This document shows positions 7,922-23,466 of a DNA stretch of 53,987 bases, piece by piece. The notes beneath the pieces are model-generated. The model did no database searches and was not told where the DNA came from. It was given only the letters and a program-made list of their open reading frames with translations. Source of the DNA: Ichthyosporea sp. XGB-2017a (lineage: Eukaryota; Opisthokonta; Ichthyosporea); contig PDIM01010330.1 of the NCBI GenBank assembly GCA_002811675.1, positions 137,844 to 191,830 on the forward strand, given 5' to 3'. How positions within the stretch are numbered: position 1 is the stretch's first letter; every line of letters begins with the position of its first letter. A program made the position numbers and the translations under genes.

Positions 7922-8995
7922 TCACTGAGCGCTGAATATGTGATCCAGTACTTCGATCTCCTCTTTGCTCAAATTCGGGTTATACACATCGACTATTAGA
8001 ACAGCACGAATAGCGTCCTTATCGTCGAAGTTATTAAATGCACTGTGCTCATATGAGTCATCAATGACAAGAACTTTCCCCAACTCCCATTCCTCTTCCT
8101 GATTGTCTACCCGTATAAAGCATCTCTTTTCCGTGGAATGCTTGCCTTGCTCATGCCCTGGTACCTGCAGGGCCAAATGTATTCTCCATCTAATATTGGT
8201 TGCCCCATAGTGTGGTTTGATCACTGTCCCCGGCTCAAGGATGCTAATGAACGCATAGCAAAATACAGTTTGGCCCATAAAGTATGCAAATGATTCAACA
8301 GCCTCGGCTATTTTGGGGCAGTAATGACAATTAATCTCATTCCTCACGCCCTGATTGTAAAAGTACAAAGCCAGCCATCTACCACTGACGTACGAATCAT
8401 CTCCTTCCCCCCTACTAGTTTCCACAATCAAGCTCTTCTCAGCACTTTCACCATTTTCACGAACACCAGCCCTCTCCCATACCCCACGGAATTCATCCAT
8501 TATAGCGTTGAAATGTTTCTCCCCAAAATGGCTCTTTGCCAAAAGCTGGAATTCTTTTTCGGAGTAATTCATTGCTTCACCAGGCACACTCGAGGGAAAT
8601 GGTCTTGATTTCAATCCAGACACACCAAACACTGAAGGCCGCTGTGGTCTATTGTCATTGTTGCGCACGCAATCTCGTCTTCTGTCACCCCCAGTACCTA
8701 GAGGAAAGCTCTCCTGAAGGCGCTCACTAACGACTCTACTCCGCCCGTCCCCAAACCTATCACTCATCAGCTCTCCGAACCTCCGATTAAAAATGTTCAC
8801 ATTACCCGTGCACAGTAAACATCCTGGCTTCCCACACGTCCCTTGATCTGCCTCTTCGTCCTCTTCGAACCGCAGCTTTTTTTGAGACAGCATCTCCAAA
8901 TGATGACTCTTCTGAAGCCTCTCTACCACGACAAGTCCTAGCACCGCCAAACAAAGGAATATATATTGGATATACTCCATGACTAATAGAATCAC
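7922..8995 (-). CDS. Aspartyl/asparaginyl beta-hydroxylase family protein (ASPH-like)
   Basis: A 2-oxoglutarate/Fe(II) oxygenase of 357 residues. Residues ~5-25 form one hydrophobic segment near the N-terminus, predicting a type II membrane protein with a lumenal catalytic domain, as in animal ASPH. The catalytic C-terminal half has the family pattern: H-Y-G-A-T-N-I-R-W-R-I-H-L around residue 258 (2OG/iron-binding His and Arg) and I-D-D-S-Y-E-H-S-A-F-N around residue 313 (second His). V-L-I-V-D-V-Y-N-P follows. A short Cys cluster (C-G-K-P-G-C-L-L-C) lies between the membrane segment and the catalytic domain, with a variable linker. There is no TPR region. The first ATG (8995) is used; a second ATG five codons later is possible. 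The natural target is unknown; animal ASPH hydroxylates EGF-like domains. Confidence 0.87.
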   Translation of the reverse strand: MILLVMEYIQYIFLCLAVLGLVVVERLQKSHHLEMLSQKKLRFEEDEEADQGTCGKPGCLLCTGNVNIFNRRFGELMSDRFGDGRSRVVSERLQESFPLGTGGDRRRDCVRNNDNRPQRPSVFGVSGLKSRPFPSSVPGEAMNYSEKEFQLLAKSHFGEKHFNAIMDEFRGVWERAGVRENGESAEKSLIVETSRGEGDDSYVSGRWLALYFYNQGVRNEINCHYCPKIAEAVESFAYFMGQTVFCYAFISILEPGTVIKPHYGATNIRWRIHLALQVPGHEQGKHSTEKRCFIRVDNQEEEWELGKVLVIDDSYEHSAFNNFDDKDAIRAVLIVDVYNPNLSKEEIEVLDHIFSAQ

Positions 8996-9180
8996 AAATC
9001 AAAGAAAACAAACGTAAATCCTCTCCTCTCCTCCCCAAACCAAATCAACAACAATTCCAAAATCACAAAAAATAAAAATAAAAATAAAATAATAATAAAG
9101 CATACAAAAATTTTGCCCATTTAATTCATTCCTTTTCATTTTTGTTCCAAGGCATGAGTTTTTGTTTCAATGTTTCGTGG

Positions 9181-9186
9181 TTTATT
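9181..9186 (-). terminator. AATAAA signal of serpin copy 1
   Basis: AATAAA on the minus strand 94 bp after the stop of the left serpin. The same short element (reverse TTTATTGTACTT) recurs at the same distance after the right serpin, although the sequence around it has diverged. Confidence 0.45.
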
Positions 9187-9279
9187 GTACTTTATAAATT
9201 AAGGTAGTTGTTTAAAATTCACAGCCACACAAGCACTCAAAAGGGGGCCTTATTCATCAAATAGACTGGGTCATCTATT

Positions 9280-10482
9280 TCACTCGAGTGCTGGTTTGGT
9301 CACCTTGCCCATAAAGAGTACCATTCCTGTAACTTGGTCATGGATGATGAACACAAAAGGTCTGTCACATCGGAATTGTTGGGGTCTCACAGGCAAGCAT
9401 CGTGTCATCATTATCATCCCAGTGGCTGCCGCTGCTTCCCCTCCTTTCTCATTCACCTCGATAAACACCTTTTGCACTACCGCAGATGCGTAAAGACGCT
9501 CCCCCGATGTCACCCGGGAGAGGTCTGCTTCCCTATCACTGAAAATATCACGCACTCCAAGGGCTTTCAGCGTGTCTGTTAACTCCATGCTGCTCTCCAT
9601 TTTGAACTTGGGGATGCCAATTTCGTATTCCCTCTCCGGCTGCTCCTGTATGCTCGAAATGGCGTCAACGAGATTAGTTTTCAGCATCAGTGACTCAACC
9701 TCCGCAAGACCGTCTCCGATACTGCTCGTCTCTTCCGGTAAAATGAACACCATACTGAGCCGTCCTCCTTTAAAAGGCATTGCCAGGCCGTTTGCCTTGA
9801 TGTCTTTCAATGGCCCCGCATGGAATTTGGCCTTCATGTGCATCATCTCACAGTCAACAACTTGACTATCAGATACATGGAAAGGTTCTTTTTCTGTGAA
9901 CTGTGGATTGAATTGCCTATCCCATAGGCCTTTGAAGTAAACAGCATTCACAAGAACCACTCGTGTTAACGCGTTCAACATGCTTGGGCTGATCAGATCC
10001 TTGATTCGACTCTCCGTTTGCTGCTCAACCCATTTATTAATCAGTGCTGCAGTCGCCTGATTATCCCCAAAATTTACAGCTTCCACGGGCGCTCCAAAGC
10101 TCTTCTCACACGCCGACACAAACGCATCCAATAGCGGAAAGTCTTTCTGTGCATAAAGAGCATTTGCAGATTTCAACACATACCCACGAGACTCTTCTTC
10201 ACCTGCACCTCCTGTCACTTTAAGACTCCCAAGCGCCTCCATATATCCCTTCTCTACCCCTGACTCATCTGGAACCCCCCTGAACAATACCTCCATAATC
10301 TCCTTGTGTGTGTTTTCTTGTGCACCTAACACCGCCATGGCAAACACAGCACTCACACTGAAGGGTGAGGCAATCAGATTCCCACTGGTGTTGCTCCTGC
10401 ACAACTCCGCATACAGGCTCTGTGAAAAAGCATTGTTCGCCTGAGCAATTGCGCTGGTCGCACTGGACGAAGACAAAGACAT
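9280..10482 (-). CDS. Intracellular-type serpin, predicted P1 Arg (copy 1)
   Basis: A 400-residue single-exon serpin. There is no signal peptide, so it is probably cytosolic like animal clade B serpins. Family landmarks are present: N-L-I-A-S-P-F-S-V near residue 35, the N-A-V-Y-F-K-G-L-W breach motif, and a C-terminal D-R-P-F-V-F-I-I-H-D. The reactive-loop hinge E-K-G-G-E-A-A-A-A-T has Gly at P15 and small residues at P12-P9, as expected for an inhibitory serpin. Alignment with clade B serpins puts P1 at Arg in M-M-T-R-C-L-P-V, predicting inhibition of a trypsin-like protease; this register is inference. The loop continues R-P-Q-Q-F-R-C-D-R. It lies about 0.6 kb from an almost identical copy. 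The ATG at 10482 is the first in frame. Confidence 0.95.
   Translation of the reverse strand: MSLSSSSATSAIAQANNAFSQSLYAELCRSNTSGNLIASPFSVSAVFAMAVLGAQENTHKEIMEVLFRGVPDESGVEKGYMEALGSLKVTGGAGEEESRGYVLKSANALYAQKDFPLLDAFVSACEKSFGAPVEAVNFGDNQATAALINKWVEQQTESRIKDLISPSMLNALTRVVLVNAVYFKGLWDRQFNPQFTEKEPFHVSDSQVVDCEMMHMKAKFHAGPLKDIKANGLAMPFKGGRLSMVFILPEETSSIGDGLAEVESLMLKTNLVDAISSIQEQPEREYEIGIPKFKMESSMELTDTLKALGVRDIFSDREADLSRVTSGERLYASAVVQKVFIEVNEKGGEAAAATGMIMMTRCLPVRPQQFRCDRPFVFIIHDQVTGMVLFMGKVTKPALE
9371..9402 (-). other. Divergent reactive-loop block, copy 1
   Basis: A 32-bp block that replaces the 38 bp at 11163-11200 of the other copy. On the coding strand it begins immediately after the Thr (P2) codon, so all loop differences start at P1 and end before the conserved C-D-R-P-F. 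Flanking sequence on both sides is identical between copies. Confidence 0.9.
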
Positions 10483-10619
10483 TTTACACTATATCACCAC
10501 TACTAATTAGGATTAAATGTTAAATACACTGAGAAATAAGATTCATAGAATCTGCTACCAACCTAAATTACAACACACACAAAAAAACCGCTACATGTAC
10601 ACGTCCACAGGAAAAACAA

Positions 10620-10670
10620 AAAATCGAAAATTTGTAATCAAAGGAAACGTCACCAAATTTCCGCAATTTT
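10620..10670 (-). promoter_or_regulatory. Conserved promoter block of serpin copy 1 with a TGACGT site
   Basis: A short block 140-190 bp upstream of the ATG is similar to 12462-12513 upstream of the other serpin, while the rest of the upstream DNA differs. It contains GGAAACGTCACC at 10643-10654, which reads GGTGACGTTTCC toward the gene. TGACGT is a CRE/AP-1-like half site for bZIP factors. Conservation between otherwise diverged flanks suggests selection. Confidence 0.5.
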
Positions 10671-10979
10671 CTCGTCGAGGTTTCTCACCCGGGTCTGTAC
10701 TTGACGGTTACCGAATGGAGAGTGTGTCTAGATAGGAGCTTATTCTATGCAATGTTTGCCCACAAACAGCAAACAGCAAACAACTGCTAATATAGCTGCT
10801 TCATGCTCTATATTGGATGTAATTGTATTCCAGAACTACGGACAATGCAGTCTCACCGGTCAGTTTATAATTCAAAGTCAGTTAACTCGGGAATTTTTGA
10901 ATGAATTCCCAAAGCTTTTCCTCACCCAGCTTCTCTTTCTTCTATTTCTTTTGTAGTTCATTTCAAAATTGTTTTGTAG

Positions 10980-10985
10980 TTTATT
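10980..10985 (-). terminator. AATAAA signal of serpin copy 2
   Basis: AATAAA on the minus strand 87 bp after the stop of the right serpin, part of the element shared with the left copy. Confidence 0.45.
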
Positions 10986-11071
10986 GTACTTATCCCGCAA
11001 TAAACATTTCAAATAAACCATCACACCACCACTGAAAATAAGGACTATCCAATCGGACTGGGTCATCTATT

Positions 11072-12280
11072 TCACTCGAGTGCTGGGTTGGTCACCTTGC
11101 CCATAAAGAGTACCATTCCTGTAACTTGGTCATGGATGATGAACACAAAAGGTCTGTCACATATGAATTCGTTCACTTCCTCAGGCTCGGGCATCATGTA
11201 TGTCATCATTATCATCCCAGTGGCTGCCGCTGCTTCCCCTCCTTTCTCATTCACCTCGATAAACACCTTTTGCACTACCGCAGATGCGTAAAGACGCTCC
11301 CCCGATGTCACCCGGGAGAGGTCTGCTTCCCTATCACTGAAAATATCACGCACTCCAAGGGCTTTCAGCGTGTCTGTTAACTCCATGCTGCTCTCCATTT
11401 TGAACTTGGGGATGCCAATTTCGTATTCCCTCTCCGGCTGCTCCTGTATGCTCGAAATGGCGTCAACGAGATTAGTTTTCAGCATCAGTGACTCAACCTC
11501 CGCAAGACCGTCTCCGATACTGCTCGTCTCTTCCGGTAAAATGAACACCATACTGAGCCGTCCTCCTTTAAAAGGCATTGCCAGGCCGTTTGCCTTGATG
11601 TCTTTCAATGGCCCCGCATGGAATTTGGCCTTCATGTGCATCATCTCACAGTCAACAACTTGACTATCAGATACATGGAAAGGTTCTTTTTCTGTGAACT
11701 GTGGATTGAATTGCCTATCCCATAGGCCTTTGAAGTAAACAGCATTCACAAGAACCACTCGTGTTAACGCGTTCAACATGCTTGGGCTGATCAGATCCTT
11801 GATTCGACTCTCCGTTTGCTGCTCAACCCATTTATTAATCAGTGCTGCAGTCGCCTGATTATCCCCAAAATTTACAGCTTCCACGGGCGCTCCAAAGCTC
11901 TTCTCACACGCCGACACAAACGCATCCAATAGCGGAAAGTCTTTCTGTGCATAAAGAGCATTTGCAGATTTCAACACATACCCACGAGACTCTTCTTCAC
12001 CTGCACCTCCTGTCACTTTAAGACTCCCAAGCGCCTCCATATATCCCTTCTCTACCCCTGACTCATCTGGAACCCCCCTGAACAATACCTCCATAATCTC
12101 CTTGTGTGTGTTTTCTTGTGCACCTAACACCGCCATGGCAAACACAGCACTCACACTGAAGGGTGAGGCAATCAGATTCCCACTGGTGTTGCTCCTGCAC
12201 AACTCCGCATACAGGCTCTGTGAAAAAGCATTGTTCGCCTGAGCAATTGCGCTGGTCGCACTGGACGAAGACAAACACAT
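11072..12280 (-). CDS. Intracellular-type serpin, predicted P1 Tyr (copy 2)
   Basis: A 402-residue serpin, identical to the left copy from residue 3 through the loop hinge M-I-M-M-T. After that it reads Y-M-M-P-E-P-E-E-V-N-E-F-I-C-D-R, so the predicted P1 is Tyr instead of Arg. That would favour a chymotrypsin- or cathepsin-like target; the register is inference. The loop is two residues longer and acidic, and resembles the P-E-E-N-F loop end of vertebrate clade B serpins more than the left copy does. Other changes are Cys for Ser at residue 2 and Asn for Lys four residues from the end (N-P-A-L-E). There is no signal peptide. Upstream it keeps a short promoter block with a TGACGT site; beyond that lies a decayed coding relic. 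Confidence 0.95.
   Translation of the reverse strand: MCLSSSSATSAIAQANNAFSQSLYAELCRSNTSGNLIASPFSVSAVFAMAVLGAQENTHKEIMEVLFRGVPDESGVEKGYMEALGSLKVTGGAGEEESRGYVLKSANALYAQKDFPLLDAFVSACEKSFGAPVEAVNFGDNQATAALINKWVEQQTESRIKDLISPSMLNALTRVVLVNAVYFKGLWDRQFNPQFTEKEPFHVSDSQVVDCEMMHMKAKFHAGPLKDIKANGLAMPFKGGRLSMVFILPEETSSIGDGLAEVESLMLKTNLVDAISSIQEQPEREYEIGIPKFKMESSMELTDTLKALGVRDIFSDREADLSRVTSGERLYASAVVQKVFIEVNEKGGEAAAATGMIMMTYMMPEPEEVNEFICDRPFVFIIHDQVTGMVLFMGKVTNPALE
11163..11200 (-). other. Divergent reactive-loop block, copy 2
   Basis: A 38-bp block starting just after the P2 Thr codon on the coding strand. It shares little with the 32-bp block of the other copy apart from a GAATT near its left edge. It changes P1 from Arg to Tyr and all primed-side loop residues. 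Confidence 0.9.
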
Positions 12281-12461
12281 TGTACACTATATCACCACTA
12301 CTATTAGGATTAAGATTCAAGATATATAGCACAAATAAGATCTCTAGTTAAATTTCAAAAAGTAAGCACCACACAAGAGAGTATGAAGAACTACGAAGCA
12401 AAAGTATAAATACACAAAAATGAAACCAAAACTCGTCCACATGACAGAAACCTAAAATAAT

Positions 12462-12513
12462 GGAAAATTTGTAATTAATGAAAGGAAACGTCACCAATTT
12501 TCCAATAATTCTC
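12462..12513 (-). promoter_or_regulatory. Conserved promoter block of serpin copy 2 with a TGACGT site
   Basis: Similar to 10620-10670, including GAAAATTTGTAAT and GGAAACGTCACC (12484-12495). It sits about 40 bp further from the ATG than in copy 1, with unrelated DNA between. See the copy 1 entry for the site reading. Confidence 0.5.
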
Positions 12514-12608
12514 CATCATTCTCATTGTGGAAGTTTCCAACCTTCGATTCTGTTACTTGTCGTCTGACAAAAGCAGGACGACTCACGGGGACTGGGCAGA
12601 GTTTTTAT

Positions 12609-20213: not shown

Positions 20214-20668
20214 TTTTTATTTACAGCTGCACAGCAGAGGCAGGCAGGAGGGAGGGAGTCGGGACTCGGGAGAGGTCATTCGTCAGGGGCTGCTAAAATT
20301 TTTTTCTTCCTCTTTTTTTTTATATTTTATTGTGTTTTCTTTTTTTTTGTTTTTCCTTGCCCTGCTGCTGCTCGGTGTTTTGTGTTTTTCGTTTATTCTT
20401 GTAAACACAATTAGGAAGAGTTTATAAAAAGTGGCTAGTGGTTAGATTTTATGTTGTGGTTAGAAAAGGGAATGTTTGTCTGTAATTTAGGACGGGATTC
20501 ATAGTGTGGGGATTCTTAAAGAAAAGGAGAGAAAAGGGGAACCAAAATTGAAAAAAAAGCAAAGTATACTGTAGTGTAGGTGAAGAGAGGGGTGTAGAGC
20601 CTGAATGATTGCTTCCTTTGCTCTCTAGCGGTGATTACGTGAGTGTCAGTAAGTGGGAAATAGTAGTA

Positions 20669-23466
20669 ATGGACCAATTTGCAGCCAAGGAGCTGGCCCG
20701 TGTTGGCTTTGATTATGACCCACCGGGAAAAGGGAAAGAACGCAAGGAGGGCAGTGAGTCTGAGGTGCTCATGTTGGGGATTGAGAGCCGTGGCGGTACT
20801 TCGTCTTCATTAGGAGAAAATGACTTTCTCAAAAATGTTTCTGGTGCAGGATCATCTGTTGGAAGTGCTGAGTTTGCCGTGCAAGCGAAAGAGATGTATG
20901 AGAGATTTGAAAAATGGAATGGGGTTCAGAAATTGCAGTTTATGGCGGGACTTCAAACGCGCGTGAATAAGGAGAATAAGGAAAAGTGGAGGGCATTTCG
21001 CAGTGGCGGAAGTAGCACAACTGCAAAAGTGCTTGGGGATTCTGGTGAAGGGGCGGGTAGTGAAATGCCAACAGAAAGCTTTGCCAGCTGGCAAGAAATC
21101 CAAGAGCGGAAGCATGAGTGCTTTAGTTATGGATTGTATCTGGGGTTGGATTTCAAACTTTTGTGCGAAACCTTGTGGGAGAGTTTGCCTGCGGTCGATT
21201 TTATATCTAGTCTCCCGGAAGAGATTGCTGTTAAGGTATTTACGTTTGTATCTCCAAAAGATACGTGCCGCCTAGCGGGCGTTTCTAAAACTTGGCACAA
21301 GATTGCAAACGATTCGTCACTTTGGAAAACGTTTTATTTCCGGGAGTTTGCAAATGTTGCGCTTTCTTCAGAAGAGGAAACATATCGAAGCTCGGCTAAG
21401 TTTTTGCGCAAGATTTATAGAGAAAATGAGGCTGCAGGTATAGAAGAGGAATATTTGAGTATACCACAAGGAAATCTCTTTCGACTGGAAAATTTCCCGT
21501 CAAATGCAGAGGTTCCTCCGCATGACTGCTTGGGCATTGTAAAAAATCAGAACATTGGGAACTATCTTTACTACTGGAAGAGGGCTTATGCTATGCAGCA
21601 TTTGTTGCTTCAAAATTGGAAGCAAAACAAGTACGAAGTTCACAATCTTGGGGGCCATAGCTTGGGAGTTTATTGTTTGCAGTTTAGCAATGAGTATAAT
21701 ATGCTTATTACAGGGAGTAAAGATAGGGCCGTGCGAGTGTGGGATTTAAAGCGCATGAAGTGTAGACGAATTTTGAATGGGCATTTGGGTTCAGTGTTGT
21801 GTTTACAATTTTTGGATCATGTACTTATTACAGGCTCTTCCGACGCATCCATACGTGTTTGGAATTCGATCTCAGGAACATGTTTTCACGTGCTCAAGGA
21901 GCACGGTGATTCTGTTCTGAATCTGCAGTTTGATGCAAAGGACGGAACAATTGTATCATGCAGTAAAGACCATTCTATAAAGGTATTCAAACTTAGAAAG
22001 ATCTCGGAGAACAGAAAACGGTCCGACGAAGGGCCATCCAGACAAAGTAATGCGTGGGAGAGTGAAGAAGGGGACATACCCTTATCCAATGCGGAAGAAA
22101 TTCGCGAAAATATGTCGGATGAGGACACTGGCTCTATAGAGCACATGGATATAGACTTTAAAAAGAAAAACTATAATATGCTAATGGAAGAGCATCTTAA
22201 TGATATCTTTCCTTATCAGCCGCGATTGTGTGAAAAGACATTACATATTATGCACAACCGCGATGAGTATGAGTACTATGAACATATGTGCCTTAGGGGG
22301 CATGAATCTGCTGTTAATGTAGTTCAGTTTGATAGCAAATATATAGTTAGTGCTTCCGGGGATCGAAAAATAAGAGTCTGGGATAGAGCAACGGGTAGTT
22401 GTCTTCGGTCTCTTGAGGGGCATTCGAGGGGTATCGCCTGCTTACAATTTCGAGGAAATGTCATAGTATCTGGAAGTTCAGATAAAAGCATTCGCATTTG
22501 GGATCTTGAAGCTGGAAAGTGTGTGAGGGAGTTGCATGGTCATTCTCAACTGGTTCGTTGTCTGCACTTTGATAATCATTTTTCCAAACTTATAACCGGA
22601 TCGTATGACACCAAAATTAGAGTATGGAATATGGCGTACAGTGTGTGTAAGTACTTGACTAGTGATTCCCTACGTAGACGAAAATGCAGTGTCCTTTGTA
22701 CTTACTATGATATGAATGTTTTGCTGTAACTTCTTAAAATATAGATTCGGAAATCCAGATCCCCGAGAAGGTGTTTAAGGTTCAATCTGATGGAAGGCGT
22801 GTTATTTGTGGAGCGCAAGATAATATATTGCGCGTTTTTGATTATACCCCAAATTGTAAACTGAATAACCTTAGTATCGTAAAAGATATTCTCGAGAAAA
22901 CGGAGACAATCCCTGATCACCTTTTGCCCGCGTTTGAAATTCGAAGGCGACAACAGAACGTTGCAAAAGTTCGTGCTTACGAAAATGCAGAAGACTTAAG
23001 TGGACATAGAGAGGATGGAGTTATGAACTTCAGTAATATTGAGTTCCCACCATTGACTGAAAAAGCAACGATATACCGGCCTTCTTCAGTAACTGAAACA
23101 ACATCGGGAGCGAGTCCGGCAAACCATGTCTATGAGAATTGCTCATCATTTTTGGGAAATCCTCAAGGTAGACCATTTGAGAACTTTAAAGAGCCTCAAG
23201 CGAGTGTGGGCATGATGGAGCAGCAGTTTTCACCACCCAAAAATATTCCTGTGAAGAGGCATTTATCGTCAAATTCCGACCGTGCCCACGGAACTGACGA
23301 ATTCAATGGTGGTTTTGTTGGTGGAGCAGGAAGTGAATCAAGTGGCGCCCACAATGGCGCCCAGGGCGCAAATGCTCGAGTACGCAATGAGGGAGCTTCT
23401 TCAAGCCTTCAGTCGATGAACCAGGGCGGTAATAGCTCGGGAAAGCGAGGTAGAATGCAGGAGTAA
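20669..23466 (+). CDS. F-box/WD40 protein (FBXW7/Cdc4/Met30 type), SCF substrate receptor
   Basis: Predicted substrate adaptor of an SCF ubiquitin ligase. Two exons, 20669-22646 and 22745-23466, with a 98-bp GT-AG intron in phase 1; the join completes the last propeller blade (N-M-A-Y-S-V/Y-S-E-I-Q-I-P). The product is 899 residues. The ATG at 20669 is the first in frame. The F-box is at ~175-225 (I-S-S-L-P-E-E-I-A-V-K-V-F, then W-H-K-I-A-N-D). WD40 repeats follow from ~327: three with T-G-S-K-D-R-A-V-R-V-W-D style ends, then a ~100-residue acidic insertion (~445-540), then four to five more after L-R-G-H-E-S-A-V-N. The C-terminal ~200 residues are Ser/Asn/Gly-rich and disordered. Substrates are unknown. 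Confidence 0.9.

Follow-up and report, generated by a model that had tools for sequence, protein, structure and literature searches.

How can two neighbouring genes be identical base for base over almost all of their coding sequence while one short stretch, beginning at the residue of the scissile bond, is different? The question is raised by two tandem serpin genes, here called A and B, in a 53,987-nucleotide stretch of DNA (the window: forward-strand positions 137,844 to 191,830 of contig PDIM01010330.1, assembly GCA_002811675.1, Ichthyosporea sp. XGB-2017a; coordinates below are counted from its first letter). We consider it probable that a tandem duplication took place long ago, that the coding regions of the copies have been kept or made identical by gene conversion, and that the codons from P1 up to C-D-R-P-F have escaped, likely through selection. 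The genes and the edges of their near-identity are:

9280 to 10482, minus strand: serpin A, 400 amino acids, P1 Arg361; Pfam PF00079 at 372.9 bits, residues 14-397 matching profile positions 1-370
11072 to 12280, minus strand: serpin B, 402 amino acids, P1 Tyr361; Pfam PF00079 at 372.0 bits; body the same as that of A from codon 2 to P1
9264 to 9279, minus strand: first 16 bases past the stop codon of A, the same as 11056-11071; the homogenised tract ends here
11056 to 11071, minus strand: first 16 bases past the stop codon of B, the same as 9264-9279
10483 to 10505, minus strand: the 23 bases leading up to the ATG of A, with a single mismatch to B
12281 to 12303, minus strand: the 23 bases leading up to the ATG of B, with a single mismatch to A

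The genes lie head to tail with 589 bases between them, and each is a single uninterrupted open reading frame (ORF) without introns. Both belong to PF00079, with a full-length serpin domain (profile positions 1-370), and serpin A matches serpins in the PDB with E values as low as 9.2e-73. In an alignment of both copies the 1,075 bases from codon 2 to P1, which hold about 236 silent sites, are the same in A and B. The mismatches are a single base at position -2, codon 2 (Ser in A and Cys in B, nucleotide 5 of the coding sequence), the loop, and, in an otherwise identical stretch downstream of the loop, one Lys/Asn codon (base 16 from the end of the coding sequence, stop counted). With the hinge glycine taken as P15, codon 361 is P1, and it is here, at nucleotide 1081, that the loop difference starts (Arg in A versus Tyr in B); it covers 33 nucleotides in A and 39 in B in whole codons, or 32 and 38 without the shared last base, and stops directly before C-D-R-P-F. 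Near-identity ends 23 nucleotides 5' of the ATG, with the one mismatch at -2, and 16 nucleotides 3' of the stop. An earlier note on this DNA, made from the letters alone, had described two copies identical down to their silent sites save for codon 2 and the Lys/Asn codon, with a 32/38-bp swap running from P1 (Arg versus Tyr) to C-D-R-P-F, and the alignment bears this out; position 9264, at which the note began its feature, is the exact lower end of near-identity for copy A.

The genome-wide search for further copies and loose loop segments that the note had proposed was run on a genome of 25.06 Mb in 291 contigs, which may be incomplete, and A and B alone were found: it returned two serpin candidates, and both matches are A and B themselves. 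Within the window, direct repeats of at least 60 bases comprise the serpin pair and low-complexity families, and nothing else.

The age of the duplication can be read from the sequence outside the tract, where four patches are relevant:

10555 to 10673, minus strand: 5' flank of A, a diverged homologue of that of B, with a GGTGACGTTTCC box; local alignment score 78
12391 to 12513, minus strand: 5' flank of B, diverged homologue, found by local alignment and genome search
9165 to 9192, minus strand: AATAAA-containing patch in the 3' flank of A, which aligns weakly with 10961-10991 (score 37)
10961 to 10991, minus strand: AATAAA-containing patch in the 3' flank of B, which aligns weakly with 9165-9192

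When the sequence upstream of B (12310-12560) was searched against the genome, it matched itself and the flank of A only, the latter at E 1.3e-7 with 78% identity over query bases 58-130. Local alignment of the two upstream regions scored 78, compared with at most 34 in 500 shuffles (33 without the ATG-proximal bases), and the aligned patches lie at similar distances from their respective ATGs. In a global alignment that excludes the last 23 bases and contains several indels, the upstream regions are about 66% identical (144 of 217 gap-free columns), a figure that is flattered by the freedom of alignment, so that the real divergence may be greater. Thus none of the 1,075 coding bases differs, against 73 of the 217 upstream columns, a greater likeness inside the tract than outside it of the kind that marks concerted evolution by gene conversion. 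On this evidence the 5' flanks are homologous, collinear and far diverged and the A/B duplication is old; the duplicated unit took in the promoter and has had time to diverge. The earlier note, although right in its description of the pair, had missed this homology.

Since the flanks are diverged homologues and no silent site differs, the bodies appear to have been homogenised after an old duplication, by gene conversion. The probability of zero change at 236 silent sites is about 3e-26 or less at 22-30% divergence, which upholds the note's argument that drift alone cannot yield the pattern; its suggestion that conversion homogenises the body while the loop escapes gains support from the contrast between diverged 5' flanks and identical silent sites. 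Two simpler causes of identity fail: recent duplication is contradicted by the diverged 5' flanks, and purifying selection on the protein by the roughly 236 unchanged silent sites. The GC content at third codon positions of the serpins (0.521 and 0.531, among the three highest of 12 ORFs measured in the window, which range from 0.358 to 0.531) is compatible with biased conversion, without being telling.

What, then, are the two loops? The reactive-loop features are:

9370 to 9402, minus strand: loop block of A, codons 361-371, RCLPVRPQQFR, P1 plus the primed side, apparently of ancestral type
11162 to 11200, minus strand: loop block of B, codons 361-373, YMMPEPEEVNEFI, apparently a diverged form with two extra codons
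9403 to 9450, minus strand: hinge plus non-primed side of A (P17-P2, EKGGEAAAATGMIMMT), shared by B without change
11201 to 11248, minus strand: hinge plus non-primed side of B, with no difference from A

For comparison we used the 119 homologues among the best 120 of 2,111 found; two were dropped, and the 117 usable loops comprise 79 distinct sequences. P1 is Arg in 96 of the 117 and Tyr in none, and the commonest loops are RSMPAPPEQFV and RSMPLPPEQFT (eight each). Loop A is close to this family, with a score of 38 to its best match (RSMPARPQQFI). Loop B, YMMPEPEEVNEFI, when aligned to RSMPAPPE--QFI retains M, P, P, E, F and I. Against the 79 distinct loops it scores 9.5 on average, compared with -2.5 in shuffles, none of 2000 of which reached 9.5, and its best single match scores 25 (p 0.007). 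The descent of both loops from one ancestral Arg-P1 loop is therefore well supported at the level of sequence, since loop B resembles the loops of its own family, and the note's description of it as an unrelated block was too strong. Nor did the note's alternative of loop segments exchanged from a donor find a source: neither loop has a further copy at up to three mismatches in the searched genome, and in BLAST at E<=10 only the two serpins match. With both genes single uninterrupted ORFs and no further loop found, the arrangement is also distinct from that of serpins with alternative loop exons.

Among the best 120 homologues, the named organisms are arthropods and one snake; most entries are unnamed, including four from EukProt. 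The searches turned up no close relative: the best homologue is 44% identical in one search and 46% in another.

How unusual is such a loop difference between such similar bodies? We compared 121 sequences (A and B included) and kept 7,021 pairs, dropping those whose loops were aberrant or that shared under 200 positions. Among the 32 pairs with bodies at least 90% alike, A/B among them, mean loop identity is 0.97 and A/B is the lowest at 0.23; this is a loose control, as many of these pairs look like near-duplicate entries and the database was clustered at 90%. At 70-80% body identity (n=112), loop identity falls as low as 0.18 in other pairs. Four pairs of paralogues from the genome served as controls. 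A histone pair on different contigs is 77% alike over 416 bases, two other loci are 70% alike over 198 bases, blastn gave no match between two tubulin loci, and another histone pair shares short repeated matches only. None of the four is homogenised, a weak control because none of them is a tandem pair.

In the sequence of events that we favour, an intronless serpin gene would have been duplicated in tandem together with its promoter long ago, and the flanks have since diverged. Interlocus gene conversion would have kept, or recently made, the coding regions of A and B identical, with the stretch from P1 to just before C-D-R-P-F escaping; loop A would have stayed near the ancestral Arg-P1 loop, and loop B would have become a Tyr-P1 loop with two extra codons. 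Selection against conversions that merge the two specificities would have kept the loops apart, and the result would be two inhibitors on one body, A for trypsin-like and B for chymotrypsin-like proteases. We infer that conversion did the homogenising and that it recurs, and the removal of loop-merging conversions by selection appears to be the likeliest reason for the escape. The differences between A and B cluster from P1 through the primed side in this one sequence pair, and the coding region is homogenised on both sides of the loop: in the segment of about 108 bases that follows it, 19 silent sites are unchanged (p 0.009 at 22% divergence, 0.13 at 10%). Since this segment is homogenised too, conversion tracts probably crossed the loop, which suggests selection rather than passive blocking, without amounting to proof. 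More tentatively, and with doubt outweighing confidence, the pair might represent the simplest form of a 'constant body, variable bait' arrangement in a unicellular relative of animals, in which conversion indefinitely shares the body, including P17-P2, and selection holds P1 and the primed side at two specificities; if so, the boundary of escape coincides with the scissile-bond residue.

The strongest alternative, although we think it unlikely, is that conversion acted without selection on the loop, its tracts ending at the loop mismatch or being repaired around it, so that the difference persists passively. A mismatch of 33/39 bases can stop a conversion tract or be excluded from one, and a single pair of genes cannot separate passive blocking from selection. 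Against this, the post-loop segment just described lies between two unlike stretches and is homogenised nonetheless, and at P1 the usual Arg of the family has given way to Tyr, so that specificity would be expected to shift.

Several further observations weigh against conversion with selection on the loop, or against parts of it. The evidence consists of two sequences of one genome, with selection an inferred step. Homology of the 3' flanks is merely suggestive, the score of 37 having been reached by 2 of 500 shuffles. Direct similarity between loops A and B is weak (protein shuffle p 0.03) and at the DNA level is below significance (codon alignment p 0.05-0.10), as expected when both loops have diverged. 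The hinge of both copies, E-K-G-G-E-A-A-A-A, fits the P17-P9 consensus E[EKR]G[TS]x(AGS)4 at every position except P14, where the inhibitory consensus, as given in PMC2770083, has Thr/Ser; with Gly at this position in both copies inhibition by A and B is not certain, and we regard an inhibitory function, judged from sequence, as probable. Finally, should the searched genome be the published assembly made from Illumina reads with SPAdes, 835 of the 1,075 identical bases are too far from any unique anchor for a 121-mer to span, and sparse differences among them could go unseen.

This last point has to be set against what is on record for the organism, which is probably Chromosphaera perkinsii, judging from one protein match and its name prefix: an F-box/WD40 protein of the window (20609-22729) gives a 100% match over 93% of the query to EukProt Nk52_evm56s223, and the name Nk52_evm78s1737 is that of a C. 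perkinsii protein (PMC6981761). C. perkinsii is an ichthyosporean isolated from marine sediment (PMC5560861). Its published 2017 assembly, of 34.6 Mb, was made from 125-base Illumina reads with 250-bp inserts and 5-kb mate pairs, using SPAdes at k=91,121 and GapCloser (PMC5560861); the 25.06-Mb genome that we searched is either part of that assembly or another one. A nanopore re-assembly also exists (PMC12695648).

It is conceivable, therefore, that the tandem genes are real, that their bodies are modestly different and that a short-read assembler merged them, an effect which could coexist with conversion and which we consider improbable. All the differences seen fall within k of unique sequence, and a perfect repeat of such length forms one shared assembler path in which isolated differences may be smoothed. 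Dense differences, on the other hand, would be expected to survive assembly. The 240 anchor-adjacent bases and the whole post-loop stretch are tied by 121-mers to unique sequence and contain, anchors apart, one difference (Lys/Asn), and their silent sites (27+30 before the loop and 19 after it) are unchanged, with p 6e-9 or less at 22% divergence and 3e-4 at 10%. The sequence also runs unbroken from loop B through the 3' flank of B into the 5' flank of A, which fixes the tandem order. The main claim thus stands, with the exact zero of body differences unproven. Least probable by far is the insertion of a foreign loop segment into one of two recent duplicates, which would account for the sharp edges and the loop identity of only 0.23 and is contradicted by the failure of both BLAST and the search allowing three mismatches to reveal a donor in the searched genome, by the likeness of loop B to the family's own loops and by the old, diverged 5' flanks.

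AlphaFold models, which lack the initiator Met and are therefore numbered one lower than the genes, have a mean predicted local distance difference test (pLDDT) score of 91.8 for A and 89.8 for B. The hinge is modelled as a strand in A (model residues 346-359), and the loop is disordered in B (pLDDT<50 at model residues 350-361); both models were built on the same 45 homologues (of 119), and we attach no meaning to the predicted contrast between them. In the homologues listed P14 is mostly Ser or Thr, and it is Gly in A (9403-9450) and B (11201-11248). By eye, no signal peptide is visible in either protein (no predictor was run).

The window contains just two exact GGTGACGTTTCC boxes, at 10643-10654 and 12484-12495 on the minus strand, both 5' of the serpins. 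Alone the box is not informative, with 3 matches in the window at up to two mismatches compared with 2.8 expected. It contains TGACGT, which we take to resemble a CRE/ATF half site, and its presence upstream of both genes makes co-regulation of A and B from a common upstream patch possible. At 7922-8995, also on the minus strand, the neighbouring gene codes for an aspartyl/asparaginyl beta-hydroxylase domain (PF05118, 127.6 bits), and a search of the window against Rfam gave no match.

The locus consists of two intronless copies whose homologous 5' flanks have diverged, in a family whose usual loop is known, and so makes the opposition of conversion and functional divergence unusually readable; the part that escaped can be placed at P1 and the primed side. 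As C. perkinsii, the probable source, is cultured axenically in the laboratory (PMC5560861, PMC12695648), the two predicted specificities are open to direct test. The word serpin is absent from the main text of the 2017 genome paper (PMC5560861), and in the open-access literature, outside which most subscription journals lie, we found neither a paper on the serpins of this organism nor a P1-bounded, identical, intronless two-gene serpin case in a unicellular holozoan. The claim in the earlier note that the arrangement looks new holds for that case within this literature, and not for the process, which is known for serpin reactive centres and for other paralogues.

For hypervariable reactive centres the published explanation is gene conversion with selection acting afterwards (Hill and Hastie 1987 and Ohta 1994, as cited in PMC3966226). 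The rodent Serpina1 and Serpina3 clusters, like A and B, consist of tandem serpins with similar bodies and markedly different reactive loops (PMC3966226, PMC2373789, PMC12646145), although those clusters hold multiple clade A genes, each with several exons; mouse Spi-2 members are 65-80% alike (PMC2373789), whereas the bodies of A and B are identical, intronless and sharply bounded at P1. Insect serpins with mutually exclusive loop exons (exon 9 of one gene; Drosophila Spn42Da) likewise join a constant body to alternative loops (PMC3966226, PMC2770083), but they do so within one gene, whereas A and B are two complete single-ORF genes for which no spare loops were found. Exon 7 of RHD/RHCE and the protocadherin ectodomains belong to other protein families and share with A and B the pattern of paralogues homogenised except where function differs (PMC3966226); selection there is backed by polymorphism or multi-species data, whereas here there is one pair of sequences. 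In Innan's two-locus model it is selection that prevents conversion at the functional site (PMC3966226). Set beside these systems, the A/B pair is a clean new example of an already described kind of evolution.

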